Shown here: piece by piece, positions 3,703-47,091 of the stretch
Layout of the letters: each line of letters begins with the position of its first letter
Numbering within the stretch: position 1 is the stretch's first letter
Assembly: GCF_003268595.1 (NCBI RefSeq)
Contig: NZ_CP029797.1
Location: 2,997,501-3,061,500, forward strand
Length of the DNA: 64,000 bases
Direction of reading: 5' to 3'
Source of the DNA: Paraliobacillus zengyii
GTDB lineage: Bacteria; Bacillota; Bacilli; Bacillales; Amphibacillaceae
Notes under the pieces: generated by a model
Told to the model about the DNA's origin: nothing
Databases searched by the model: none
The model's input: only the letters and a program-made list of their open reading frames with translations
Made by a program: the position numbers and the translations under genes

Positions 3703-4008
3703 ATGCAATGTAAAATGAATCGCAATGCTGCAAAAATACTTAGAGGTTGGTTGGAAAGTGATGGTGCAGAAGGAAAAATGGTTCGTGTATATGTAACGGA
3801 GATGCACGGAAATCATGCGCACTATGACGTGATGTTAGATACACCGACAGAACATGATGAAATTGTTAAAACGGATAAAGATATCGATGTATTACTAGAT
3901 GCTAGAGAAGACTTTTTAGATGGCGTCTGGATTCAATATTTCTTTGTTCCACAAGAAGGATTTGCTATAAGTAACTCATCTAAAGGCTTACCGCCACATC
4001 ATCATTAA
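3703..4008 (+). CDS. HesB/IscA-fold protein lacking the cysteines
   Basis: A 101-residue protein with the strand pattern of A-type iron-sulfur carriers: an N-terminal helix of the 'AAKILRGWL' type, a central 'VRVYVTE...YDVMLD' strand pair, a 'DIDVLLDAR...L.GV.IQYF' segment and a 'GFAISN' end. The CGGCSG loop and the C-terminal cysteines of IscA are absent; the only cysteine is near residue 3. Iron-sulfur transfer by the usual mechanism is therefore unlikely and the role is unknown. The C-terminus ends in HHH. ATG 3703 is preferred over GTG 3694, because the GAGGTG site lies 6 nt before the ATG and overlaps the GTG. It stands alone on the plus strand. Confidence 0.6.
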   Translation: MQCKMNRNAAKILRGWLESDGAEGKMVRVYVTEMHGNHAHYDVMLDTPTEHDEIVKTDKDIDVLLDAREDFLDGVWIQYFFVPQEGFAISNSSKGLPPHHH

Positions 4009-4053
4009 AAAACACGCGTCTATCCATTATTCAGATGATAGACGCGTGTTTTT
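4007..4053. terminator. Bidirectional terminator
   Basis: A near-perfect inverted repeat (AAACACGCGTCTATC with GATAGACGCGTGTTT) has A-runs on the left and T-runs on the right. It serves the HesB-like gene on the plus strand and the large membrane protein gene on the minus strand. Confidence 0.9.
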
Positions 4054-4086
4054 CTCACTAATAAAAAATTTCTATTTTTGATGACG

Positions 4087-7000
4087 TTAATTCCATTCCT
4101 TGAATTTCGAGACTAGTTTTTTCACTTTCTTTACTAGCCTTCCCTCTTCTTTTCTTTGCTTTTGCCACTCGTTATAGCTTGCTATACCAATTAATAGGAA
4201 ACCTGCAAGTAATAGATACGCCCACCAAGGCATATTGCCCCAATATGGTTTAGTCTGATAGATCACATTAAAGAGAAGTGTACCAAACCCAATAAAAAAG
4301 TAAGATTTAATTTGAAATTGAGCTCCTATCACTAAAGATAGTAAGGAAAGAACTCCGACAATTAAAGCATCCCATATCGTATTACTCGAAATTGCATCCA
4401 TTACTAAAATGACGGTCACTAACAATAAAGAGAGCGATTGAATAGGTGACATTATGTTTTTATAGTTTTTCCAAGTCTTCAGACTCAAAATAATTGCTAA
4501 GACAAGAACAGGTAAAACCCTAAATTCCGTATGAAAAAGTTCCGAAATAAAAGAGAGATATTCCTCTATAATAGAATAATAAGTTGGCAGAAAACTAACC
4601 AAACCTAATGTGACAATAGCTTTCTGCGCTATGTGATATTGAAACCTTCTCACTTGCGCAAATAGCCATATCGTTAGTAACACATATGGAATAATCTGTA
4701 TCCAAACACTATTAAATGTTTGAAGAAAAGTGAAAGAATAACCAAGATAAAATACAGCTACAATAGAATACCAATCAATATAGCGACTTTCTTCATTCCA
4801 TTGGTACAGGCTCTTAAACAAGATTTTCCCTGCAATAAATAGAATAAAAAAACTAGCCAAACTAATTAAAAACAACTGAGTATCTTGATACAAATAGCGT
4901 TGTTGTTCCCAAATGCCTAACGATAATGTTAAAGGAATCACTAAACCAACAAACCACTTTCTCCTGTGTAAAAAGTAAACATTAAGAAGTACATAAGATA
5001 GAACGGATAAAACCCCTCCTAATGAATTAACTTCGTATACGCTAAGAATCGTATATAAACCGTAGTTAGAAAAAGGAATAATATACCATTCCATTCTTTC
5101 CTTCCAAGTCTTATTTACAACGAACCATCCTACAAAGAATAGAATGCTAGACCAAAACCAATAGTAACCTTGTGAGACATTTTCAAATAAATTATAATAC
5201 GGAACGGTCGTAATTAGAATAAATGTAACCAAAGTCAAAGCTGCATAAAGAAATAGCTTGATCGTCCATTCTTTTTTCTTCATTAACATACTATATATAT
5301 AAACACCCAACGGAACAAACAAGAATAGTGGATTTATCATTTGCGAAAAAGCTTGATCAATCAAAATAACTAACATTACATTCAATTGAATAACCTGTGC
5401 AATCCAAAAAAAGTATGGTTTTAATGCAGGAAGACGTTTTCCTTGCCACCCTTCCACGACAAGTAAGACCAATGGGCCAAACAAAAGAAAAATTACAATA
5501 GAATCAAAATCTTGAATTGAAAAAGTGCTTAGTAAAGAAGCGTAAAAGCAAAAAGTAGTGATTGCTACAAGAAACCATAATGCGTCCAGTTTTGTCTGTC
5601 TTACTAACCAGATAAATACACCAATACCTACTAAGAGTAAGACAGGCCGAATAAAGGTCGTATCAATCGTAGAGAGACCGACAAGAGACGATAATCCAAA
5701 TAGATAACTACCTTGACCTATATAAAAGGCAGCTTTAGCTAATCCAGTTTTCTTGTATCTTCGCCAAATTAAACTAACGAACAGTAGGATAAGTGATGAA
5801 ATCGCAATATGAAATGGAAGATCTAAATAGACGGTGTATCCTGAAATCAGCTCTCCAATCTTTGGATTTAAGCAATACAAAGCAAACAACCAACTGACTC
5901 CATTCGTCCACTTCGCTATTTCTCTTTCTATGTTATTTTTGCTAGAAACAACAAACAATGCACTAAGACCGAATAATGTATACATAAGTGAAGCCTGTAT
6001 AAGTGGTCCAAAAAGAGTTGCATACATCATGGAAGCTACCATTGCAGCAACAGACAAATAGAAAACACTTCTTTTTATCGGCAACAAAAATACAATTCGG
6101 TCACCTATACCAATTAATATAAATAGCAGCATAGCATAAAAAAATAGAAACAAATCCATTCTGATACCTATCAAATAATCAAGTAATATATCTCCAAGTT
6201 GCAAACCAAATGTGTATAGAAAAATTGTCGCTAACCAGCTGAAAATTACTCGATTGGTTATATAAGATAAATAGGTATAGGTAAAAGTAATAACCAAGTA
6301 AGCAGCTAATAAAATCAAAGAGTCCTCATTTGTTCTTATAACAATCCCTTGGTAACTAATATAAATAAAAGCAAAAAATGAAATTACAGCGCTGGTATAG
6401 CGAAACATGTGTGATATAAATACATCACTTTTTACGATTTGTGCAAAAACCAGATAAAATACACCAATCAATCCATAAACAATTAAATCAATGGAACCTA
6501 GCCAAGAGGATTCTGTTAATTGATAAGCACCATATGCAAATAATGCAGAGAATACAAATTGATATTCTTTTGTGTTATAAACAAACACCATTGCAATATA
6601 AATTGTGGCGGTTAATAGAATATTGAAACTGTAAAAAAGCGATTGTTCAAAAATTACTAACATCAGTAATGTTGACACAATTAAATTCAACTGTGCATAC
6701 TTAGGCAGTTCTTTTACAAATAACGTTACTTTAGGAGCCCTACGATAATGGTGATATAAGTATAAAAGTAACGCGTTGAACACCATTATCAATAGGTAGA
6801 AAACATCGACAGATACCGGAGTAAATCCAATAAGAAAACCTACTGAAAAGGTTAAAAACAAATATGAAATCCAGACAAATAATCTAGAACGATGTTTCCA
6901 AGCATTCCGCACATATAATGGTAAAGGAATTAGATTACCCATTGCACCTAATAAAAATCTTCCCTCCCCTCTTAACGACAAGTAATCTCCAAACAAACTA

Positions 7001-18214: not shown

Positions 18215-19357
18215 TTAGTTAGGAGATTTCCCCTTTTTTTCTGGGCTGTTTTCAATGTTAGACTTTTCTACTTTTAAAGTATTTTTCTCTGAATCTACTT
18301 CAGTCTTATCCTTCTTTATAACCTGCATTTCTTTCTTGTCAGCTTGTTGTTCCTTTTTCTCTTTAGCTTTTTCACTCTTTTTAATTTCCTTAGTTACTTT
18401 CTCTGTTTTAGGTTTGTTAACTTCAACAGGCTTCTTTTCTTCTTTTTTCGCTTCAGTCAATTTATCTTGTCTATTAGACTCTACTTTGTCCGGCTTATTA
18501 ACTTGTTGATCTTCCCTTTTAATTTGGCTATTAGTAATATCATTTTTAGCCTTTTCAATCTTTGTTGAACTATTTTTATTTGCTTTTTCTATTTCAACAC
18601 TTTTCTTTTTTTCACTATCTATTTGTTCCTTCTTAATATCCTCATTAACTTTAGTAATAGAATTATCGCTTAGCTCTTCGGGCTGTACTTCTATTCCTTG
18701 TATCTCTTGGTTATATAACTGTAACTTATTTATTGATAGATTCGCTTCTCTAGCATCTTCCACTAGTTCTTTACTGCCATTTTTAACTTGAACAGTCGCA
18801 GTTGTTGCATTCGTAATTAAAGATTGATCAATAGTTTCTTTTACTTTATTGATATCCACGTCATTTTTTTCCGTTAAAGAAACAACTGTTACATCTACCT
18901 GGGCGTTTTCACTTTTCAAGTAATCTCCTTTTACAGCAGCAGTAATTATTTCTTCTAAAACAATGTCAATCTGCTTATATTTGTATGCAATGGAATCCAT
19001 AACAAGTTGTCCATCCTCATTTAGGGAATTCACCTTTGTTACATTAAGGTCAGCATCTGTGTAAATTTCAATACTTGGATTGATATCTATAGCAAAAAGA
19101 TACGATTCATCTTTTGTCATAAATGTACTTATATAATAACTCATAACTGTTAAAAACAATATAGCTACAAGGGATAAATATTTCTTGATAATCTCGCCTT
19201 TTGGGAACTGCTTCTCACTAATAGTATATGAATCTCCTAGTTGTGGAAATTCATTCTTTGAACGCGGCATGTTTTTAAAGTTACCATCCTTACACAAGAT
19301 TGTAATATAGTGTGCAGTGACTTTTATAACGACTCCATTAAACCGGTTTGACCTCAT
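18215..19357 (-). CDS. rsgI: Anti-sigma-I factor RsgI
   Basis: Single-span membrane anti-sigma factor that holds SigI until a signal is received outside the cell. Residues 1-~50 form the RsgI N-terminal domain that binds SigI. One helix (~60-80) spans the membrane, and an extracellular beta/alpha region (~85-215, starting FAIDINPSIEI) has the conserved RsgI periplasmic core. From ~230 to 380 it becomes a low-complexity Lys/Glu/Asn/Ser tail, likely wall-spanning, without a recognisable carbohydrate-binding module. Its ATG overlaps the sigI stop by 4 nt, giving translational coupling. The 380-residue length fits B. subtilis RsgI. Confidence 0.9.
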   Translation of the reverse strand: MRSNRFNGVVIKVTAHYITILCKDGNFKNMPRSKNEFPQLGDSYTISEKQFPKGEIIKKYLSLVAILFLTVMSYYISTFMTKDESYLFAIDINPSIEIYTDADLNVTKVNSLNEDGQLVMDSIAYKYKQIDIVLEEIITAAVKGDYLKSENAQVDVTVVSLTEKNDVDINKVKETIDQSLITNATTATVQVKNGSKELVEDAREANLSINKLQLYNQEIQGIEVQPEELSDNSITKVNEDIKKEQIDSEKKKSVEIEKANKNSSTKIEKAKNDITNSQIKREDQQVNKPDKVESNRQDKLTEAKKEEKKPVEVNKPKTEKVTKEIKKSEKAKEKKEQQADKKEMQVIKKDKTEVDSEKNTLKVEKSNIENSPEKKGKSPN

Positions 19358-20082
19358 GATTTCCCCTCATTTCCGAATGTTACTTGTATATAGGCAGATA
19401 GTTGTCGCCATTCTGGATGCAGTCGTACAACAACCAAAGCCACGATATACTTCCTATGTCTCTCAACCGTTTTTAATCGATGACCAGACACTTCTATAAA
19501 TCTAGTAACAGGAAAACGTTTTTTTTTTAAAAAGAAATCTACTAACTCTGGATTTTGAATAAAATCATTCGCAATTGTAATCAAGTTTGCTTTCGTTTTC
19601 CGATGTGTAGGGGAACATGCTTCCAATTCTTCAAATTCAATGTTGAATTGTTTTAAGATTTCGCTTAATTCCAGAATTTCTTCCACTAATTCTCTTTGTT
19701 GAAGATGTTGGTGATACGTATCCATAGAATGATCAACATCATAAACAGTTACTGAATCCTCACTATTAATTGATTCTACTTCTAATGGTATATGTTTTAG
19801 CTTAGTTTCTCGACGAAAGTAGTCTATTAACTCTCGTTTAATAAGTAAATATACATAATTTAGAAAGCTTTTATTAGCGCAACTATCATATGTGTCAATT
19901 GCGCGATCAAATGCTAGTAATCCTAGACTAGACTCTTCATCACTCCACGTGATAAATCTTTTACAAACATGTCCAACTGTATTGATAATATAGGGTTTAT
20001 GATGATTAATTAATTTCTCTCTAGCAATGTCATCACCATTTGATGCAGCTTTTATATAGTGATTCACTTCAGTTTCATGCAC
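19354..20082 (-). CDS. sigI: RNA polymerase sigma factor SigI
   Basis: Alternative sigma-70 factor linked to heat and cell-wall stress in Bacillus. The product (~242 residues) shows region 2 features (SFLNYVYLLIKRELIDYFRR) and a C-terminal helix-turn-helix-like segment near FIEVSGHRLKTVERHRKYI. The longest frame starts at GTG 20091, but GAGGGG at 20090-20095 then overlaps the start; GTG 20082 has 8-nt spacing and is preferred. It is followed immediately by rsgI. No ACCCCC/CGAA-type autoregulatory promoter was recognised upstream. Confidence 0.92.
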   Translation of the reverse strand: MHETEVNHYIKAASNGDDIAREKLINHHKPYIINTVGHVCKRFITWSDEESSLGLLAFDRAIDTYDSCANKSFLNYVYLLIKRELIDYFRRETKLKHIPLEVESINSEDSVTVYDVDHSMDTYHQHLQQRELVEEILELSEILKQFNIEFEELEACSPTHRKTKANLITIANDFIQNPELVDFFLKKKRFPVTRFIEVSGHRLKTVERHRKYIVALVVVRLHPEWRQLSAYIQVTFGNEGKS

Positions 20083-20225
20083 CCTATTCACCCCTCAATC
20101 ATCAGTCATTTGAACTCTAAGCATACGATTTTTTTATGTATAGGTAAATAACCAAAACTTGTCTATTCATATATTTGAATCTATCATCTAAATCTTCTTA
20201 CTTATAAGAACAATATAATAGACTT

Positions 20226-23693: not shown

Positions 23694-24746
23694 CTAAACC
23701 TTAATTGAAACTACTTCTGTTTTTATACCTTTATAGAGATTTATTATAAGAGCACAAAATAAAATTGACCACGCAATAATAGCTATAAACACCGTGATCT
23801 TCGGAATGAAACTTAGAAAATCAACTTCAAGTGCCTTTGATAATTGCAATGTACTTGTTGTATACATTGCTAATGGAAACACCATTCCCCATAACTGTGG
23901 CTCATAGGATAAAGGGTGGCGATGATAAATATGACGCCATATCATCAGTATGAGTAGTAAGGGAACCCACCAAGTACCTGCAACCCAGAAAAATAAGGTG
24001 AAGCCTTTTAAAAAGGATGAAAATACATCTATCAATTCCCAATAGCCTCGGTGTAGTATAAGCGTCGAACCTGCTAGCGTTGTAATAGCAACAGCACCCA
24101 TGTTAATCCAATATGGTGGCGTTAATGCTGAAAATTTTAATCCTAAAAAAGTAAAGCGATAAAAGATTAATGTAATAATATTTAAATAAAGCATACACCC
24201 GAGAAAATACATACACAACGTAAAGAATAGAATAACCTCTCTGCCTGTTTCAACGTGTGGTGATAACAACGTACCAAGTATAGATATCGATTGCGTTGCA
24301 ACGGTAGCAATTAACCAAGCACCATTGATACCTTCGGCTAAAGCAGGCTTATCTTTACTTATTGTGACTGCAGTAAAAAAGGTATACATAACAATCACCC
24401 ACAAACAAATTGCAATGAACCAAAGGATCAAAGGTATCACAATAATGTTACCAACAACAATTAGTTGGCTGCCGTACACGCATGTTCCAGCAACTAATGT
24501 AAAGAATCCAGGTCCTATAGTATGACTTGTTATATCACTTAATAATTTTTTGAAATATTTACACAAACGTAGCAGTGTCAAAGCCCATAGAACAATATAA
24601 GAAACTGTATTGATATATAGTAAGACATTAGCGAAAAAAACATACCCTAGTAAATGAGTGCCTATTGATAATGCACCCGTTGCCATTACTAGCGCAAAGT
24701 AACCAGGAAAAAGCGTTGCTGCTCTGTGGTTTATAAACTGGAACAT
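23694..24746 (-). CDS. TDT-family carrier (tellurite-resistance/dicarboxylate type)
   Basis: A membrane carrier of ~350 residues with about ten helices, of the TehA/Mae1/SLAC1 superfamily. The start FPGYFALVMATGALSIG is typical of the first helix, and AEGINGAWLIATVATQSI of helix 5. Members export or import anions such as malate, sulfite or chloride; the substrate cannot be told here. Frame and ribosome site favour ATG 24746: TTGGAGG lies ~9 nt upstream, while ATG 24773 has none. It is divergent from the OsmC-globin gene across a 270-bp region that contains an FNR-like palindrome. Confidence 0.82.
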   Translation of the reverse strand: MFQFINHRAATLFPGYFALVMATGALSIGTHLLGYVFFANVLLYINTVSYIVLWALTLLRLCKYFKKLLSDITSHTIGPGFFTLVAGTCVYGSQLIVVGNIIVIPLILWFIAICLWVIVMYTFFTAVTISKDKPALAEGINGAWLIATVATQSISILGTLLSPHVETGREVILFFTLCMYFLGCMLYLNIITLIFYRFTFLGLKFSALTPPYWINMGAVAITTLAGSTLILHRGYWELIDVFSSFLKGFTLFFWVAGTWWVPLLLILMIWRHIYHRHPLSYEPQLWGMVFPLAMYTTSTLQLSKALEVDFLSFIPKITVFIAIIAWSILFCALIINLYKGIKTEVVSIKV

Positions 24747-24943
24747 CCTTATATCCTCCAAATCATTAATCATGAGAGATAAACAAAAACAAATGTTATT
24801 GTACCACTATTTTAACCTTTATGTATAAAAATCAGGTTACAACCTTACCTCCAGCAAATCCAGATTAAGTACAAGTCAATCACACATAATGTTCTTAGCA
24901 TTGATCACAAAATCGCCTTAATTTTTAAAAAATAAATAAATAA

Positions 24944-24985
24944 ATGATATAAATCAATTATTCTTACATAAAAGTTCGATATAAT
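24944..24985 (+). promoter_or_regulatory. FNR-like site plus -10 element of the OsmC-globin gene
   Basis: ATGAT-ATAA-ATCAA (24944-24957) matches the FNR/FLP consensus TTGAT-N4-ATCAA at nine of ten bases. A perfect TATAAT lies at 24980-24985. With the start placed 7 nt after it (24992), the palindrome is centred at -41.5, the classic class II activator position. No good -35 hexamer is present, as expected for an activated promoter. Confidence 0.55.
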
Positions 24986-25016: not shown

Positions 25017-25808
25017 ATGGCAGATATAAAGTTTGAAGCAAATGTAGATTGGCATGGAACCGGAAGTGATGGTGAAGGGTCAGTAACACTTAACGAGCGA
25101 CCGATCACATTCTCAAGTCCCACTTCAATGGGGGGAAAAGGCTCTGGAACTACTCCAGAAGACTTGTTAATTAGCGCAGTTGCAACTTGCTATAGTGGTA
25201 CGTTATACAGTAGCTTGGTCAATAATAAATTACCAGTTCATCACGTTGAGGTTCGTGTAGAAGGGATTGTTACCGGTTATCCTTTAACAACTAAATTCGA
25301 ACAATTAATCGTTCATCCTACCATCATTGGTGGGGACAATTTAATGCTTTCTAATTACAAACAAGTCGCAGATACAGCTAAAGATAACTGTTTTATCGGA
25401 AAATCAATTGTTGGAAACATTGATTATAAGGTTGGGACTGTAGAAGTTTCTAACAACGTTATAAATCAGTCTGTAATTGATGCGTTGGTTGAAAATTTTT
25501 ATCAAAACCTAACAAAAGAGTCTTACTATACTACGATGTTCGCTGAACGAAATGTAGATATTGAAAAGCTTAAAGCACGACAAAAGATTTTTATTGCACG
25601 TCTATTAAATGAGGAACATGCCACATCAGACGAAGAACAAAAAGAACAAGTTCTAGAAAGACACAGTTATCAAACCACACCTGAAAATGCTGCATTATGG
25701 TTAGACACTATGGAGAAATCTATGGATGAAGTTGATCTTGCTGAGGAAACAAAAGGTCTGCTCCTAATAAAAATGCGTAAACTTATGGATACTATGATTA
25801 AAGAATAA
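25017..25808 (+). CDS. OsmC peroxidase fused to a truncated-globin-like domain
   Basis: Residues 1-~140 are an OsmC/Ohr-type thiol peroxidase domain. The two conserved cysteines are seen as ATCYSG (Cys58) and DNCFIG (Cys125), so reduction of organic or other peroxides is likely. Residues ~150-263 resemble a truncated hemoglobin: a VIDALVENFYQNL first helix, a KARQKIFIARLL helix, then LERHSYQ with His216 in the proximal-ligand position of the 'RHxxF' motif, and AALWLDTMEKSMDE after it. The loop before His216 is shortened relative to group II globins. AAGGGTGG precedes ATG 25017. The FNR-like promoter fits a role at low oxygen or under nitrosative/peroxide stress. The globin assignment rests on pattern matching by eye. 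Confidence 0.75.
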   Translation: MADIKFEANVDWHGTGSDGEGSVTLNERPITFSSPTSMGGKGSGTTPEDLLISAVATCYSGTLYSSLVNNKLPVHHVEVRVEGIVTGYPLTTKFEQLIVHPTIIGGDNLMLSNYKQVADTAKDNCFIGKSIVGNIDYKVGTVEVSNNVINQSVIDALVENFYQNLTKESYYTTMFAERNVDIEKLKARQKIFIARLLNEEHATSDEEQKEQVLERHSYQTTPENAALWLDTMEKSMDEVDLAEETKGLLLIKMRKLMDTMIKE

Positions 25809-25910: not shown

Positions 25911-25952
25911 AAAAAAAAACACCTTCGCTTTTCACTCAACGAAGGCGTTTTT
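25911..25952 (-). terminator. Terminator of the surface-protein gene
   Basis: On the minus strand CGCCTTCG and CGAAGGTG pair around a ~14-nt loop, followed by nine T residues. The plus side also ends in TTTTT, so it can serve the OsmC-globin gene as well. Confidence 0.88.
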
Positions 25953-25964
25953 AAGTTATTATTC

Positions 25965-28900
25965 TTAGATAATCATCTGTTTTCTTCTGTATCTGTAATA
26001 GACTAGTAATACTAGACCCATGATGATGCTTAGGAAACCAATTAATAGCCAATCAAACATATTTGTCGACGTGTTTGCAAGTCCACTTGTTCCTCCGTCA
26101 TCACTATCGCTTGTTTCAACATACAGAGGATTTGACTGTTCATTTTTTATTTCATTTAACGTATTTTCATTCGAAACAGGTTCAATTATTATATCTTCGC
26201 CATCATTCTCAACCGTTTCACCTGGAACTTCTGGAGGAGTAGGTTGATCATTTTCATCTACAGGAGAAGTAGGTGTTGGTGATTCATTCTCTTGATCCTC
26301 GTTATCTTCTTCAACAGGAACTTCAATCGGAATATCGTCCCCTTTTATAAAGGACCAGATATCTGATGTCGTTTTACCTGTGAATTGATCGGTGACTACT
26401 GCGTACCATGAATAGGTTTTATCTTCTTCTAGTCCCTTCCAAGTTACTTCCGCTATTTCACCACTTGAGACGTCCTTAACCAAACCAATCTCTGTATCAC
26501 TATATACATTAACAGCAAAATAATCTGTAGCAACACGCTTATCTGTGGCTGCTAAGTCTAGCTCCAATACGAACTCATCTTTCCCTGGATAGGCATCTGT
26601 ATCATAATAATTATAATCATCAAGGTAAGGCGAATAGGTATTAACCATGATTCGATTATTATCCGTATCGAAATGAAGTAATCGCATGTAGCCTTGTCCA
26701 CCTTCTGGACCTCCTTGATAATCAGCCAACATCTGATAGACATTACGATCTGTATTTCCGTCTCCATCATCATCAATTTCGTCTACTAATAATTGGCTCT
26801 CATGATAATGACCAGAAAGAACCGCAAATACATTTTCATTCGGTAAAACAACTTCTTCGTATAACTTCTCACCAAGCGGGTGACGTGTACCAGTTGCCTG
26901 CATATATTCATGAAAATTGAGTATCGCCTTTCTATCTGGATATGCAGCAAGTACGTCATTCATCCATTTAATCCCTTCATCTTCTACTCCCCAACCAAGG
27001 TAAACCATAATGTAATCATTTCCATCTACAGAAATGAGATCAAAATGACCACGATTATTCTGATATGATCCACCATAATAAGATCTATCTTCAAATCTAT
27101 CGGCTCCGAAGTACTTATAATATGCTGTATAATCATTTGTTTTTTGCGAGACATCATGATTTCCTGCCAGCACACCATATGGAATGTTTGCCTCATCTAA
27201 TGTACGCATCGAATTGTCTGCATTTTCCCATTGAACTTCCTTATCAGATTCATCAACAAGGTCACCCGTATGAAACACATATTTAATATTCATTTCCTCT
27301 TGTTTTTCTGCAATCCATTGTGTTTGTCTATCATAAATATATGGATAACTTTCTGAATAGTACTGTGTATCTGACATCCAAACAAATGTATAATCATATT
27401 CCTCAGGAGTCTCTGGGATTTCATCTTGAACGATGACATTAATTTTACTATCTTTTACAAAATCGCTTACAACAACTGAGCCTTTTAGTTCAAAATCATT
27501 TTCTCCTGCTACTTCAGAATCAACGATATTCCACTGACTCAACGAATGGTTCCATGCATACATCGTTACTTTTCTTCCTGACAAAGAGTTACCATTCCAA
27601 ACAAACTCAACAATATCGTTTTCATCCACTTTACTATCTACCGTGACATCAAAACGATGATACGGAAATTGCGTGGTTGAATCTGTTATCATGTATTCCT
27701 GATCCTGTTTAGAAGTCAAAGAAATATCCGCTTCACTAAATTCTGCTTCACCTTCTGGAACTGGTGTATTTGGCGGTTCCACATCTGATGCACCACTAAA
27801 TGATTTTACCTGATTCAAATCACTCGGCTCATATTGGTATCCTTGATAAAAAGCTACGTCCATATCGTCACCTTCCGGATCAGTAACGCGCACTTTTAAA
27901 ACAGGATCACCAGTAACAGAATCATTTAATTCATCTGAATTACTACCAGGTTTCTTTGGATTTTCATCTACTACTGAAAAATCAACCTCTAATATAGCTG
28001 TATTACCAACATGATCTTCTACCTCTATTTTTAATTGATGGCTACCAGCAGGCAACATACCCGATGATGTCTGGTAAGGTAGCTCAATTTTCTTATTATC
28101 TAACGATACTTCACTGTTCTTTACCCCTGCAATTTCATCTAAAATTGTCGCATCAATTTCAAATGCGCCTTTATATTCTTTTCCTTCTTCTATTGTTGTT
28201 GTAATCGTTGGTGCGGTATTATCGACAAGTACAGTCGTTTGGAGCTCTTCATCACTATCTGCCACAGTAATCAGATGTTCACCGTCAGAAATAGTTGTTG
28301 TATCCCAAAGATAAGATTGTGATGAAGCTAATTCATCCTTAACTGTAAAAATAAAGTCTTCTGAAATCCGGTCGGTACCATCGTCACCCATATCATATAC
28401 CTGATTTGGATCTCCATGTGTTGGATCAATTAAAATTGTTCCATCCGCTAATACGAGACGGACATTTCTAAGATTATAATCATCCCGATTTTCACCAGGA
28501 TCACCCTCCCATGGCGTTGCTTTATTTCCTGCACGTATCGTTATCGTGTTCTCTCCAATTTGAAGTTGATCTGCTTCAATTGGCACAGTAATCGTTTCCC
28601 ATTGTGCCATCCAGTCATCAAATATATGAATAATCTCATCACCAATTGTGACACCATTTTGGAAATACGTATTAATTCCACTAACCTCGTATGCAAAATA
28701 GGCTTTATGTTCAATTGTATTATACAGACTCGTTATTTGCTTTACACCATCAATAGACAAGGTAATGTCATTCGGGAGGTCATCCTTAGAGGTACCTTTG
28801 ATCACTTTTTCACCGTTTACTATTTCTCCCTCGCTTACGTTTAGACGTAAACTTGAATCATTTAAATCATTTGTCACTTTAACTTGATAGCTGTCACTTG

Positions 28901-31900
28901 TAACTTGATTGACCCCATCTGATGCAACAAAATAATATTCGACGTATTCCTTCCCAATTATTTCTGGTGAATATATCCGATAGTGATAGAGCATATCATC
29001 GTAATCCTCTGTTAATAGTGCCGTTTGAAAAGTCTCTTGTTCATTCGTTCTATAATATACTTGAACTGTCTTAACTTCCAGTTCATCCTGTACGTCTGCC
29101 AAAATGTCTATATTATCTGTTTGTAACACATCATTTTCATCCGTAAGGTTTTCAATCGTTGGTGCATGCTCATCAGTTGGCATTGTAATTTGCTGTTTTG
29201 GTACTTGGAATGCTTCAACATTTCCAGGAGTTGCAGATATCAATCCAGCACTAATCTTGTCCATGACGTTCGATCCATCTACAGGAAATTTATAAACAAT
29301 ACCTTTATCAGCTTGTGTATCATCGATTGTTTCTACATCATTATAATAAGCGATCGAAATTTCTTGCCCTGTATTAGTTGCGATTAGTAAACCGCGCATA
29401 CTTCCATTTGCCATACCAGCACTATATATTTTAACAATATCTTCATTTTCCACTAAACTCGTATTATAATTCGAATTAAAATCCGCCACAGTTTGTGCAT
29501 CATTCTGGCCATTAACTATCCAAAAAACAAGTGTTTCTTTTGATGGGATAACAACATCAACTGGAATGGACGGCCACGTAATATCACTTTCTGGATCAGA
29601 ACCATAACGATATTGCAATTTATAATCTTTAAAGTTAATTGCTTGATCTGTGTTATTGTAAATTTCGATAAACTCATAACCATCTGCAGTTCCGACATTT
29701 GTACTATCAGGAACTACTTCTGTAACAAGCAATCCAGGCACCTTGCTAAAATCCACATCCTCTTTACGAACCGTTATCTTATATTCGTCTGATTTACTTA
29801 TATTTGTTCCATCTGTTGATTCGAGATAATATGTTATATCCGATTCAACATATACACCGGGGATACTTACTGCATAATTACTAGGATTCTCCGGGTCTGG
29901 ACTCATTGCAAATGAAGTAAACTGCTCGTCATCTTCACCTTTAACATATAAAGTCGCTACCGGAATAGCTTTATCATCTGTAATAATTGCCTCTAATTCA
30001 ATCGAGGTAAAGGCATCAACTTCTGTCACCGGTGTGTGTGACATTTGTGGAGCTTCGGTGTCTTTTTCTATTTCAGGAATTAATACCGTGCTTATCGGTA
30101 CTTGTTCAGATTCAATAATACCTGGTGTGGGATCAGCCATAGTTCTATATTTAACCATATTCGATCCCTCTCGCGGATACTGGTACGCGATAACAGCTCC
30201 AGTATTATCATTGTCAATTCCAAGATAATCAGCATACGTAACCTGTTCTCCTTGATTATCTTTTATTAAAAGCGCGCGATTCCCACCATTAGCAAAGCCT
30301 GGGAATGCAGTATCGGTAACTTCAATTACCTGTTTATCTGTTAAGTCGCGATCGAAATTTTGATTGAAGTCACTTAGCTCCTTTCCACTATTGTTATACC
30401 AAAAAACAAGTGTCTGTTCAGATTCAATTGTAGTTGCTGGAATCTGAAATGGAACATCTACTCCTGAATCAGTATATCGATAGACAAACGTATAATTAGT
30501 TAATGAGAGTGACTGATTCGTATTATTGTATAGTTCAAAATACTCGTAATTGTCTGTTCCACCACCTTTTGAATTAGGTGCAAGTTCTGTAATTAACAAA
30601 TGAGGATAATTATTGAAATCTTCGTCTACTTCTTCTTCCATTTTGATTGAAATTTCTATCCGTTTGTCTATTGAAGTTGGATAGGAGACACGATGATTAG
30701 AATCTGTAGCCGAAATATAATAGGTTAGTGTTTCAGCTCGTAATTCATCACTAGGAATGACAGCTTGATAGGTATTACTTTCTATATTGGTCATTTCTAT
30801 CATCTGATAACTATCTTGCTTATTCGTTTGATAGTAAAGTTTTGCAGAAATATCAGCTTGATCATCTACTATACTCGCTTCGATCTTCATGTCTTTTCCT
30901 GCTTCAATTTCCTTTATTTCCTCATGATTAATGGTAGGTGCTGTATGATCCGATAGAATCACTTTTTGATCTGGCACTTGTTCATTAATCAGTGAACCAG
31001 GATTCGGATCACTAAGTGTTTGGTACTTTACCATTTCATTTCCAGTTGTCGGATACTGATAGTCTACAACTTTCCCACTAGCAATATCTTCAGATAAATA
31101 ATTCGCAGAAATAATAACCTCGTTGCTCGTGTTCTTGACAACTAGCGCACGGTTTCCACTATTGCTGAAACCTGTTCCAGTATATTCGACAACATCTTCT
31201 TGAGATAAGGTCGTCTCGTAATGGGCATTAAAATCAGCTAACTCGCTGCCTGCAGCATTTCGCCAAAATACAAGTGTCTGGCCGGAATCAATTGTTGCCT
31301 CAGAGAAATCTATTTGAACATCCTCCTTCCCACTACCGTCTGTATAACGAATAGCAAGGTTATGAGGGTCAAGAATGATCGATTGATTTGAATTATTATA
31401 TAGCTCAAAATACTCGAAATCATCTGTTCCATTGTTATTTGGCATAACCTCTGTTAGAAGTAGTTGCGGTAGTGTATTAAAGTCAATTTCTTCTTCACTT
31501 TTTGGATTATCTATTGATTCTTGTTTATCTGTTTCTTCCTCATCTGTAGATGTATCTTCTTCATTAATTGTTGGTACTTCCTCTGGTGATTCTACGACTG
31601 GCTCAGAGATACCTTCTTCCTCTTGGGATGGTGATGGTTCGCCTTCCTGTTCAGCATCACTGTTCGGCTGATCACCCTGCTCAGGTTCTTCAACAACAGT
31701 CTCACTATCTTGTTCCGTTTTGTCTAGTTCTTGATCCGTGTCTGTGGAGGAATCTTCTTCTACTATTTCTACTTCAGAGTCTTCCGTCATATTATTAGAC
31801 TCTACAGCTAGCACCCTATTAGTAGGGAAAACCATTGCAAAATCCATAAATATTACAGAAAAAATTAAGAGAGATGCCAAAACTTTTGTTACATTCTTTC

Positions 31901-31916
31901 TAGTTTCTTTTCTCAT
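25965..31916 (-). CDS. Giant surface protein: three lamin-tail domains plus metallophosphoesterase
   Basis: An exported protein of ~1983 residues. From ATG 31916 (GAGGAGG upstream) it has a signal peptide ending near VLAVES, then an acidic Glu/Asp/Ser/Thr linker to ~150. Three lamin-tail (LTD) repeats follow at ~150-265, 440-560 and 730-850, each opening with LLxTEVxP and containing YEYFELYNN or a variant. Each is followed by an Ig-like 'APTI...VDD' domain. A calcineurin-like phosphoesterase lies at ~1515-1710: MSDTQYY, HTGDLVDE, GNHD and SGHYHES. A fibronectin-like domain, a Pro/Glu-rich linker and a terminal helix with RYRRKQ end it. LANTS before the helix may be a degenerate sortase signal. 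Likely wall-attached nucleotide or phosphoester hydrolysis. Confidence 0.85.
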   Translation of the reverse strand: MRKETRKNVTKVLASLLIFSVIFMDFAMVFPTNRVLAVESNNMTEDSEVEIVEEDSSTDTDQELDKTEQDSETVVEEPEQGDQPNSDAEQEGEPSPSQEEEGISEPVVESPEEVPTINEEDTSTDEEETDKQESIDNPKSEEEIDFNTLPQLLLTEVMPNNNGTDDFEYFELYNNSNQSIILDPHNLAIRYTDGSGKEDVQIDFSEATIDSGQTLVFWRNAAGSELADFNAHYETTLSQEDVVEYTGTGFSNSGNRALVVKNTSNEVIISANYLSEDIASGKVVDYQYPTTGNEMVKYQTLSDPNPGSLINEQVPDQKVILSDHTAPTINHEEIKEIEAGKDMKIEASIVDDQADISAKLYYQTNKQDSYQMIEMTNIESNTYQAVIPSDELRAETLTYYISATDSNHRVSYPTSIDKRIEISIKMEEEVDEDFNNYPHLLITELAPNSKGGGTDNYEYFELYNNTNQSLSLTNYTFVYRYTDSGVDVPFQIPATTIESEQTLVFWYNNSGKELSDFNQNFDRDLTDKQVIEVTDTAFPGFANGGNRALLIKDNQGEQVTYADYLGIDNDNTGAVIAYQYPREGSNMVKYRTMADPTPGIIESEQVPISTVLIPEIEKDTEAPQMSHTPVTEVDAFTSIELEAIITDDKAIPVATLYVKGEDDEQFTSFAMSPDPENPSNYAVSIPGVYVESDITYYLESTDGTNISKSDEYKITVRKEDVDFSKVPGLLVTEVVPDSTNVGTADGYEFIEIYNNTDQAINFKDYKLQYRYGSDPESDITWPSIPVDVVIPSKETLVFWIVNGQNDAQTVADFNSNYNTSLVENEDIVKIYSAGMANGSMRGLLIATNTGQEISIAYYNDVETIDDTQADKGIVYKFPVDGSNVMDKISAGLISATPGNVEAFQVPKQQITMPTDEHAPTIENLTDENDVLQTDNIDILADVQDELEVKTVQVYYRTNEQETFQTALLTEDYDDMLYHYRIYSPEIIGKEYVEYYFVASDGVNQVTSDSYQVKVTNDLNDSSLRLNVSEGEIVNGEKVIKGTSKDDLPNDITLSIDGVKQITSLYNTIEHKAYFAYEVSGINTYFQNGVTIGDEIIHIFDDWMAQWETITVPIEADQLQIGENTITIRAGNKATPWEGDPGENRDDYNLRNVRLVLADGTILIDPTHGDPNQVYDMGDDGTDRISEDFIFTVKDELASSQSYLWDTTTISDGEHLITVADSDEELQTTVLVDNTAPTITTTIEEGKEYKGAFEIDATILDEIAGVKNSEVSLDNKKIELPYQTSSGMLPAGSHQLKIEVEDHVGNTAILEVDFSVVDENPKKPGSNSDELNDSVTGDPVLKVRVTDPEGDDMDVAFYQGYQYEPSDLNQVKSFSGASDVEPPNTPVPEGEAEFSEADISLTSKQDQEYMITDSTTQFPYHRFDVTVDSKVDENDIVEFVWNGNSLSGRKVTMYAWNHSLSQWNIVDSEVAGENDFELKGSVVVSDFVKDSKINVIVQDEIPETPEEYDYTFVWMSDTQYYSESYPYIYDRQTQWIAEKQEEMNIKYVFHTGDLVDESDKEVQWENADNSMRTLDEANIPYGVLAGNHDVSQKTNDYTAYYKYFGADRFEDRSYYGGSYQNNRGHFDLISVDGNDYIMVYLGWGVEDEGIKWMNDVLAAYPDRKAILNFHEYMQATGTRHPLGEKLYEEVVLPNENVFAVLSGHYHESQLLVDEIDDDGDGNTDRNVYQMLADYQGGPEGGQGYMRLLHFDTDNNRIMVNTYSPYLDDYNYYDTDAYPGKDEFVLELDLAATDKRVATDYFAVNVYSDTEIGLVKDVSSGEIAEVTWKGLEEDKTYSWYAVVTDQFTGKTTSDIWSFIKGDDIPIEVPVEEDNEDQENESPTPTSPVDENDQPTPPEVPGETVENDGEDIIIEPVSNENTLNEIKNEQSNPLYVETSDSDDGGTSGLANTSTNMFDWLLIGFLSIIMGLVLLVYYRYRRKQMII

Positions 31917-32346
31917 AGTGAACCTCCTCATAATCTCATTATGATAAGTATAAAGTTCAACTATTAACTAGATATGAATTTTTTGTTAATATATCAAATT
32001 ATTTACTATTCAGTAAAGTACATGAAAAGGCGTAATAGGGAAGCTATATTAGAGATTAGAGAAAAAATACGCTTAACGTTGGAAATAAAAAAGCAGGAGT
32101 TCTTTGACTAAACCTATAGAAAAAAAACGCATTCTCTTGTATAGAGAAGCGCCTGATTTTGAAAAATAAAGTTATAGTTCACTATGTTCTCATTAAATAC
32201 ATTTATTAAAAATGGATTATTGAATGTTTAAATTGTTTCTTTTCTGTAAACGTCTAGAGTCTTATTGGATCATAGTCTCTCTAAATAGTATGTATTAATG
32301 CAAAAAAGTATAATCGCTCGTTATATTTAAAAACTAGATACTATTA
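31917..32346. other. Intergenic region upstream of the surface-protein gene
   Basis: AT-rich and without a supportable gene. It contains the lipoprotein-gene terminator at 32119-32152 and the (undefined) promoter of the surface-protein gene. No riboswitch signature was found. Confidence 0.6.
32119..32152 (-). terminator. Terminator of the lipoprotein (pseudo)gene
   Basis: On the minus strand CGCTTCTCT pairs with AGAGAATGCG (one bulged T), followed by eight T residues. It lies ~195 nt beyond the stop codon. Confidence 0.7.
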
Positions 32347-46065: not shown

Positions 46066-47091
46066 TTATTTCAAGTACTCTCTTACTTCATCTATATTTT
46101 TGAAATTATCTATATGGTCGATAACCAATTCTAATGTCTCGATTTCTTGTTCATTTAACTTTTTCTCCATCTCATCTGGAAGGGGAGCTACAAATTTTGT
46201 GATTAATCGAATAGCAACAGCTGCAAGTGCCTCTGTTTTTCCTTCGATCTTGCCTTCTATCTTTCCTTCTATCTTTCCTTCTATTTTTCCTTCTATTTTT
46301 CCTTCGATCTTTCCTGCTTCCCTTCCTTCACGCAAACCTTTATCACGCCAGGAGTTAGGCAGTTTTTTCACGAATTCCTCTAGACTTTCATCTTTGGATT
46401 CTCGCAAACTTTCCATTAGAATTTCCTCCTCTGTTTGATTTAGACTCATATACGACTCAAAAAAGCCGAATATTAATTCCATTTTGGCTGGATTCAGTTC
46501 CATTCTCGCTAACATACGTAAGAATTCCTTTTTCACTTGTATTCTCTCTGTCTGTTTATAACCCATTTTACTTAATAATGCCGCTGCGATCGGATTATCA
46601 GACGTTAAAAAAGTACGCCAATTATGTTTCTTTAATTCAACTTTTAAAAATTGGAAAGTTAATACATGGTGAAAAGGAAATGTCATTTCAAAAACGTCTG
46701 GTTCATCTCGAATCGCATCATAGGTAAATAGTGCAATTGGAAGGATTGGTTTTCTATATTTAGTATACAACAAACTGAAGTATTGAAACATTCTTTCATC
46801 AAAATTTTCTTGCGGATAACTCTGTGATTCTACATGTATAATGAGTAGTGTATCCTGTTCTTTCCATGTTGCTTCCATCACCATATCTGCTTGGCGTCTT
46901 TCTCCATGAATTAAATCAGTAAATACTTCATCTGCTAGGGGCTTTAAGGATGAGAAATCTAGTTGTTGGTGAATCTCGGGGAAAAATAGCGATATAAATT
47001 CTTCGAAAAATGTACCGATCAACTGCTTGAACAACTGATCGTGGTCCATGTATATAGGCCTATCTTCATGAACTGTTAATAACGCTGGCAA
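46066..47091 (-). CDS. Rpn-family recombination-promoting nuclease/transposase-like protein
   Basis: A 341-residue PD-(D/E)XK nuclease-fold protein of the Rpn/YhgA type. The core is seen as MDHDQLFKQLIGTFFEEFI, then RQADMVMEATW and LLIIHVESQSY (the Asp and Glu of the nuclease fold), and DERMFQYFSLLY. Such proteins cut DNA and promote RecA-independent recombination in E. coli; some act in defence. Near residue 260 a run of seven 4-residue EGKI/AGKI units forms a basic/acidic helix. The start is TTG 47091 with GGTGGT 8 nt upstream; an ATG at 47095 is out of frame. It is monocistronic. Confidence 0.82.
   Translation of the reverse strand: MPALLTVHEDRPIYMDHDQLFKQLIGTFFEEFISLFFPEIHQQLDFSSLKPLADEVFTDLIHGERRQADMVMEATWKEQDTLLIIHVESQSYPQENFDERMFQYFSLLYTKYRKPILPIALFTYDAIRDEPDVFEMTFPFHHVLTFQFLKVELKKHNWRTFLTSDNPIAAALLSKMGYKQTERIQVKKEFLRMLARMELNPAKMELIFGFFESYMSLNQTEEEILMESLRESKDESLEEFVKKLPNSWRDKGLREGREAGKIEGKIEGKIEGKIEGKIEGKIEGKTEALAAVAIRLITKFVAPLPDEMEKKLNEQEIETLELVIDHIDNFKNIDEVREYLK
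46235..46317. repeat. In-frame 12-bp tandem repeat (EGKI units)
   Basis: About seven copies of a 12-bp unit (GAAGGAAAGATA and close variants on the minus strand) encode EGKI repeats within the Rpn-like gene. Copy changes would alter helix length in steps of four residues without a frameshift. Confidence 0.85.

Follow-up and report, generated by a model that had tools for sequence, protein, structure and literature searches.

A census of globins recognises flavohemoglobins and globin-coupled sensors as chimeric classes, and the accessible parts of that paper do not mention OsmC (PMC1457004). In addition, a nitrate reductase fused to a truncated hemoglobin has been described in raphidophyte algae (PMC3820574) and a nitric oxide (NO) synthase with a globin domain in Synechococcus (PMC6104048). 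As far as the accessible portions of these papers go, both chimeras are precedents for a globin inside a redox enzyme and both are linked to nitrogen oxides; they involve other partner enzymes and other lineages, and no OsmC. Here, an OsmC-truncated-globin fusion gene is described from the bacterium Paraliobacillus zengyii. It lies at 25017..25808 on the plus strand of a 64,000-nucleotide stretch of contig NZ_CP029797.1 (positions 2,997,501 to 3,061,500; NCBI RefSeq assembly GCF_003268595.1), the whole of which is called the window below. A preliminary description of the locus, made from the letters alone, did not know this fusion as a described enzyme, and no report of an OsmC-globin fusion was found in the openly accessible literature searched, with subscription papers and preprints mostly outside the search. 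Like flavohemoglobin (Hmp), the fusion is a chimeric globin enzyme in which heme would be joined to a redox-active domain. However, Hmp, as set out in the accessible portions of its literature, consists of a 3/3 globin and a C-terminal flavin adenine dinucleotide/nicotinamide adenine dinucleotide (FAD/NAD) reductase, whereas the fusion carries a 2/2 globin after a dithiol peroxidase and has no flavin domain.

The gene is a single 263-codon open frame with an ATG start and no internal stop, as the preliminary description had placed it, and all of its features given here are on the plus strand. Residues 40-137 (25134..25427) match the Pfam OsmC family (E 3.8e-12, 46.9 bits against a gathering cut-off of 27.5). 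Both cysteines named in the preliminary description, Cys58 within ATCYSG (codon 25188..25190) and Cys125 within DNCFIG (codon 25389..25391), align with the two active-site cysteines of OsmC/Ohr chains in the PDB and are the expected peroxidatic and resolving residues, respectively. Glu48 aligns with the Glu of the NPE motif in these chains, and all three residues are kept in the six full-length fusions known (6/6). Residues 151-260 (25467..25796) match Pfam Bac_globin (E 9.8e-5, 23 bits against a gathering cut-off of 21). In the PDB, the N-terminal half matched OsmC/Ohr chains, and the C-terminal half matched truncated hemoglobins of Bacillus and Geobacillus. With the full-length model, all 50 matches listed by Foldseek were OsmC-type; the globin matches come from the C-terminal part, for which truncated-hemoglobin structures rank first, with 19-24% identity in the structural alignments. 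The C-terminal domain is predicted to have the 2/2 truncated-globin fold, and its six predicted helices are taken as B, C, E, F, G and H. The truncated-globin-like character first proposed for this half is borne out by the Pfam score and by the predicted fold alike.

The heme pocket is where the preliminary description had put it, with an Arg-His pair (R215-H216) and a following helix segment at residues 227-238, LWLDTMEKSMDE. His216 (codon 25662..25664) aligns with His76 of YjbI, the truncated hemoglobin of Bacillus subtilis, at the proximal HisF8 position, Tyr162 (25500..25502) with YjbI Tyr25 at TyrB10, and Trp228 (25698..25700) with YjbI Trp89 at TrpG8. Trp G8 and Tyr B10 mark group II truncated hemoglobins, for which a Gly-Gly motif in the EF region is also typical. 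Conservation was assessed in a globin subfamily of 17 sequences (6 fused and 11 stand-alone), in which identity to the window protein falls to 35% for some. Residues F161, Y162, F175, L185, Q189, H216 and W228 are identical in 17/17, Phe CD1 and Gln E11 among them. The preliminary description had let its proposal stand or fall with, among other things, a globin fold and a conserved histidine; both were found, the former in predicted structure. The same conservation bears on the idea that the C-terminal half is a globin fold no longer able to bind heme and is used for dimer assembly or protein contact. The marginal Bac_globin score would suit this idea, as would E7 and EF-loop positions unlike those of canonical globins. 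However, His F8, Tyr B10, Phe CD1, Gln E11 and Trp G8 are retained in 17/17 at identities down to 35%, which speaks against heme loss, since loss would not preserve the pocket, and we consider this role very improbable. TyrB10, GlnE11 and TrpG8 are also the ligand-holding set of Bacillus group II globins, as would be expected of a ligand buffer, in which the globin would bind O2 or another ligand tightly and keep it from or near the OsmC thiols with no turnover. Nothing specific contradicts buffering, but the nitrogen-oxide neighbours of the partner families described below would not follow from it alone, and we rate it as improbable.

The fused globin shares its 2/2 fold, Tyr B10, Gln E11, His F8 and Trp G8 with group II truncated hemoglobins, namely B. 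subtilis YjbI (1ux8) and the homologues of B. anthracis and G. stearothermophilus. In contrast to them, it has Leu rather than Thr at E7, a CE region three residues longer, one residue fewer after His F8 and no GGP..Tyr63 loop. None of the 17 subfamily members has the GGP motif in the EF loop (0/17), and none has a Tyr in the loop that holds Tyr63 in YjbI (0/17); in the window protein, Thr203 aligns with Tyr63. A separate, canonical YjbI-type truncated hemoglobin is encoded in the same genome near 987 kb on C1 (L001:1468-1869; Bac_globin 121 bits). This paralogue shares the conserved subfamily residues except L185, where it has Thr, and contains the GGP..Y loop, GGPSLYNEEHGHP. Fused and canonical truncated globins thus coexist in the genome, and by sequence the fused globin belongs to a divergent subfamily distinct from YjbI. 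A YjbH-like gene, named by eye, follows the canonical globin gene (L001 575-1471). YjbI itself is a group II truncated hemoglobin with protein-hydroperoxide peroxidase activity that requires Tyr63, according to the accessible part of the report (PMC9536834). This activity would give the fusion a simple logic, that of a double peroxidase whose halves both reduce hydroperoxides, with the globin acting on protein hydroperoxides. As no subfamily member (0/17) has a Tyr in the Tyr63 loop, with Thr203 at the aligned position here, the activity should not be transferred by analogy, and a separate YjbI-like globin with the motif is kept in the genome; a double peroxidase is therefore rather improbable in our view.

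Five more full-length fusions were found, with 41% (G322, the same record as Alkalibacillus almallahensis CECT 8373, L047), 53% (G624), 49% (G852), 49% (G758) and 47% (G908) identity to the window protein; the fusions belong to four families in all. All six exceed both Pfam cut-offs, with Bac_globin scores of 24.2-34.6 bits in the five others. Their alignment is gap-free over the first 200 columns, linker included, and the linker length is invariant (6/6), which indicates, from the sequences, that the junction is inherited. A chance, frameshift or assembly join is ruled out by the same fusion with the same junction in five other genomes. Carriage by mobile elements was also rejected, as 9 plasmid records and 2 phage records matched and none in either group covered 80%; viral contigs yielded no relative. 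Full-length fusions occurred in 1/159 genomes of the genome's own family (limit 1e-10) and, at a limit of 1e-17, 2/397 in an order draw, 4/398 in a class draw and 1/398 in a phylum draw, the last being the window genome itself. These three draws overlap and had at most 6 candidates scored per genome. The rates were 1/22, 3/151 and 1/10 in the families of G322, G852 and G624, respectively (limit 1e-17). Taken together, the fusion is rare and patchy, and either old or laterally spread.

An invariant linker is as expected if domain geometry matters, and it raises the possibility of a heme-gated peroxidase, in which the globin would not be a second catalyst but a sensor of O2 or NO whose signal, passed along the short fixed linker, switches or tunes the OsmC peroxidase. 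Globin-coupled sensors are a known chimeric class in the accessible parts of the census (PMC1457004). However, the same globin subfamily stands alone in 11 genomes and so works without an output domain, and the globin generally comes first in chimeric globins, as far as the available parts of the sources extend, but last in this fusion. Gating of this kind is, on balance, unlikely.

Each half of the fusion also has stand-alone counterparts: those of the OsmC type come from families f53 and f86 (49-54% identity), and those of the globin from 11 genomes. The separate halves are not simply neighbours, as tblastn found this globin type at 0/12 OsmC-only loci and OsmC at 0/11 stand-alone-globin loci. 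At genome level, a globin match was present in 6/11 OsmC-only genomes, all six being GGP-type truncated hemoglobins, and an OsmC in 2/10 stand-alone-globin genomes (G010 and G084, 30% identity), the rest having none at limits of 1e-10 / 1e-17. A tree of the OsmC half groups the fusions (2 changes, with 0/500 shuffles as low), with bootstrap not settled and long branches flagged, and a tree of the globin half is unresolved (4 changes, 85/500 shuffles as low). The gap-free junction argues for one fusion event; the trees neither prove nor exclude a single origin.

The SACOL1771/OsmC/Ohr hydroperoxide reductases have the domain fold, both cysteines and the Glu before the cysteine helix in common with the OsmC half. 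Its nearest NCBIfam OsmC model is the SACOL1771 family peroxiredoxin (TIGR03563), with a match that begins at residue 5 and scores below the cut-off of 166.15 both for the window protein (66.6 bits) and for the Alkalibacillus fusion (75.8 bits). Unlike the SACOL1771 family, the fused OsmC bears a globin and has an MGGKG motif with Lys41; in the OsmC-half tree, fusions and OsmC-only type stand together, separate from SACOL1771-type proteins (support 100/99). Lys41 is present in 6/6 fusions and in 8/8 close OsmC-only relatives (L053-L060), with Met in the more distant L064. These eight relatives form a lone OsmC subfamily with MGGKG, 49-54% identical to the fused OsmC half, and one of them, L056, scores 73.6 bits on the SACOL1771 model, again under the NCBIfam cut-off.

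Regulation was considered at family level. The Bacillus Fnr consensus is TGTGA-N6-TCACA/T. Sites of the form WGTGA-N6-TCACW with at most one mismatch were found within 200 bases in 7/17 promoters of the globin family (shuffled mean 0.32; 0/2000 shuffles as high), namely one fused gene (G624) and six stand-alone genes (G084, G221, G459, G440, G380 and Bacillus sp. EB600). By comparison, they occur before 6/157 other genes of the same loci (Fisher p 2.8e-5), two of the six controls sharing one site between divergent genes (L070). With up to two mismatches the counts were 11/17 (shuffled mean 3.95) and 30/157, respectively. Among the genomes behind these counts, G221 and G380 are congeneric, as are G224 and G181. 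The test is partly post hoc, as TTGAT-N4-ATCAA and TGTGA-N6-TCACA were scanned first and the second was then counted with A/T ends. For the former motif, the window had 13 sites against 8.5 expected, which is no significant enrichment (12/100 shuffles as high). Among OsmC-only orthologues, a site within the one-mismatch limit is present in 1/8. CRP-family genes are present in the window genome; the product of one (L094) ends in CENCPIVLC, which we take to resemble the iron-sulfur Fnr of Bacillus, and scores 63 of 228 bits on the NCBIfam Fnr model. Taken as promoter sequences of a family, these boxes point to low oxygen.

The neighbours of the lone partners were surveyed next to this. At stand-alone globin loci, an NO-inducible flavohemoprotein and a hemerythrin lie near the globin in L070 and a hemerythrin in L048, and NarK-like transporters are found in L043 (214 of 312 bits on the NarK model), L044 and L073. 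A carbonic anhydrase (L073), a flavodoxin (L074) and a diiron monooxygenase (L049) were also present, and the remaining loci of the 11 have none of the queried genes. In G459, a single cluster (L070:4953-7725) comprises the lone globin, flavohemoglobin Hmp, a hemerythrin and a small frame that looks cupin-like by eye, and a perfect Fnr-type box lies further on, between two divergent genes. In Bacillus sp. EB600, the lone globin is divergent to a diiron monooxygenase of the methane/phenol/alkene hydroxylase type, with a consensus Fnr-type box (L049:2408-3532 and 3983-4354).

For the OsmC-only type, wider stretches were read around 12 loci in 11 genomes. At five of the 12 (G808, G641, G887 and two of G855), narG or RIC/ScdA, the latter called by ScdA_N plus hemerythrin, is found no more than about 8 kb away; G887 and G855 are congeneric, G855 supplies two of the five, and the check was prompted by an earlier sight of narG and OsmC on one contig, with no formal background count. 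RIC/ScdA is a repair protein for NO-damaged iron centres, and orthologous lone OsmC genes lie near it in L103, L104 and L112. In G641 the OsmC gene follows a run of NarK-like, hemerythrin-like and nitrate reductase genes on the same strand, and in G808 the order is OsmC, hemerythrin, SLAC1, narG, narH (L101:8360-14885). In the window, a SLAC1-family anion channel gene (23694..24773, minus strand; Pfam SLAC1 158.9 bits) diverges from the fusion gene, and its product is 36% identical over 346 amino acids to the G808 SLAC1, which lies between the OsmC-only orthologue and narG. Judged from these arrangements, the channel is a possible functional partner of the fusion. The promoters of the globin family and the neighbours of the OsmC relatives are two independent lines that point to low oxygen and nitrogen oxides.

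On this evidence, we give about an even chance to the reading that the fusion is a bifunctional low-oxygen enzyme against peroxides and reactive nitrogen (NO/peroxynitrite), and the reading is strengthened by the OsmC family pointing the same way as the globin family. The protein would be a cytosolic stress protein with two active sites. Its OsmC domain would act as a dithiol hydroperoxide reductase, with Cys58 attacking the peroxide and Cys125 resolving, and in the usual OsmC dimer two globin heads would be attached by short linkers. The group-II-like globin would bind heme through His216, while Tyr162, Gln189 and Trp228 would hold O2, NO or peroxide at the heme. Synthesis would take place mainly at low oxygen; organic peroxides would be removed by the thiols, and the heme would deal with NO or peroxynitrite, substrates whose choice is the least certain part of the scheme. 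What the analysis shows is the fusion and its inheritance, the integrity of both active sites, a predicted globin fold and, among relatives, the signals from promoters and neighbouring genes. The observation made in the preliminary description is confirmed. Its interpretation is partly supported, in the OsmC half with both cysteines, the predicted truncated-globin fold and the conserved His216; the coupling of heme chemistry to thiol peroxidase activity that it suggested is hypothetical. To it are added, from sequence comparison, an inherited fusion family, a globin subfamily distinct from YjbI and a low-oxygen/nitrogen-oxide context of the partner families.

Several results weigh against a bifunctional low-oxygen enzyme. 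Ohr has an active-site arginine with a functional role, and in the alignment with OsmC/Ohr chains its position is taken by Ser17 in the fusion protein, for which Lys41 might substitute. The full-length structure model, folded from four sequences, is of middling confidence (predicted local distance difference test, pLDDT, 66; predicted template modelling score, pTM, 0.48), and its relative domain placement was left unused. In the window, a possible Fnr/CRP-type site, ATGATATAAATCAA (24944..24957, plus strand; centre 24950.5), has two mismatches and a score reached by 24.5% of shuffles, which is not significant alone; the promoters of relatives lend the site support. It sits in the region common to the fusion gene and the divergent SLAC1 gene, with its centre 41.5 bases before the +1 inferred from TATAAT (24980..24985, plus strand), a likely -10 box read from the sequence and not among the promoter-scan sites; 41.5 upstream of +1 is the class II position of FNR/CRP activators. 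The fusion promoters of G322 and G758 have no credible Fnr-type box. Seven of the 12 OsmC-only loci have no narG or RIC/ScdA neighbour, and at the other five fusion loci none of the nitrogen-oxide genes sought was present. Neither the window genome nor the Alkalibacillus genome G322 has the nitrate reductase family PF14710, so that respiratory NO is no obvious load there, and PF14710 is present in 4/6 fusion, 7/10 stand-alone-globin and 7/10 OsmC-only genomes. Nitrate respiration as a necessary common thread was rejected on these grounds, since this family is missing from the window genome and its distribution does not tell the groups apart. Among the rivals to the bifunctional enzyme, heme gating ranks first, followed by the YjbI-like double peroxidase, the ligand buffer and the globin without heme.

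Downstream of the fusion gene there is a terminator-like stem (25926..25947, plus strand), which overlaps another such stem on the opposite strand. The 3' neighbour, at 25965-31931 on the opposite strand, encodes a 1988-residue surface protein that, by eye, is apparently secreted and anchored, with repeated domains and a metallophosphoesterase-like part. As both flanking genes are on the other strand, the fusion gene is probably transcribed alone, as a single gene. Elsewhere in the window, and likewise named by eye, are a Sigma-I-like factor with an RsgI-like anti-sigma whose C-terminal tail is very rich in lysine and glutamate (18215-20091), and a transposase-like protein of the Rpn/PD-(D/E)XK type, in which KIEG is repeated in tandem and in frame close to the C-terminus (46066-47091).

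To our knowledge, the physiological reductant and the true reaction of truncated hemoglobins have long been open. Their natural joining to a thiol peroxidase points to a possible partner and to a route for electrons that can be tested. Considered separately, both partner families lead to low oxygen and nitrogen oxides and suggest a possible role there for OsmC-type peroxidases. The fusion delimits two subfamilies as well: a divergent group of truncated globins that lacks the GGP..Tyr63 loop, and a group of OsmC proteins scoring under the NCBIfam cut-offs. Each occurs fused and alone, making domain-swap tests easy. A doubtful, more speculative proposal is that the ferric heme of the globin is reduced again by the OsmC cysteine pair, which a dihydrolipoyl or other thiol donor would recharge; the protein would then be a single-chain heme-dithiol enzyme. 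If true, it would be a self-sufficient NO dioxygenase or peroxynitrite reductase, with a thiol relay in place of the flavin reductase half of flavohemoglobin, and the relay would answer, for this lineage, the question of what reduces a truncated hemoglobin.
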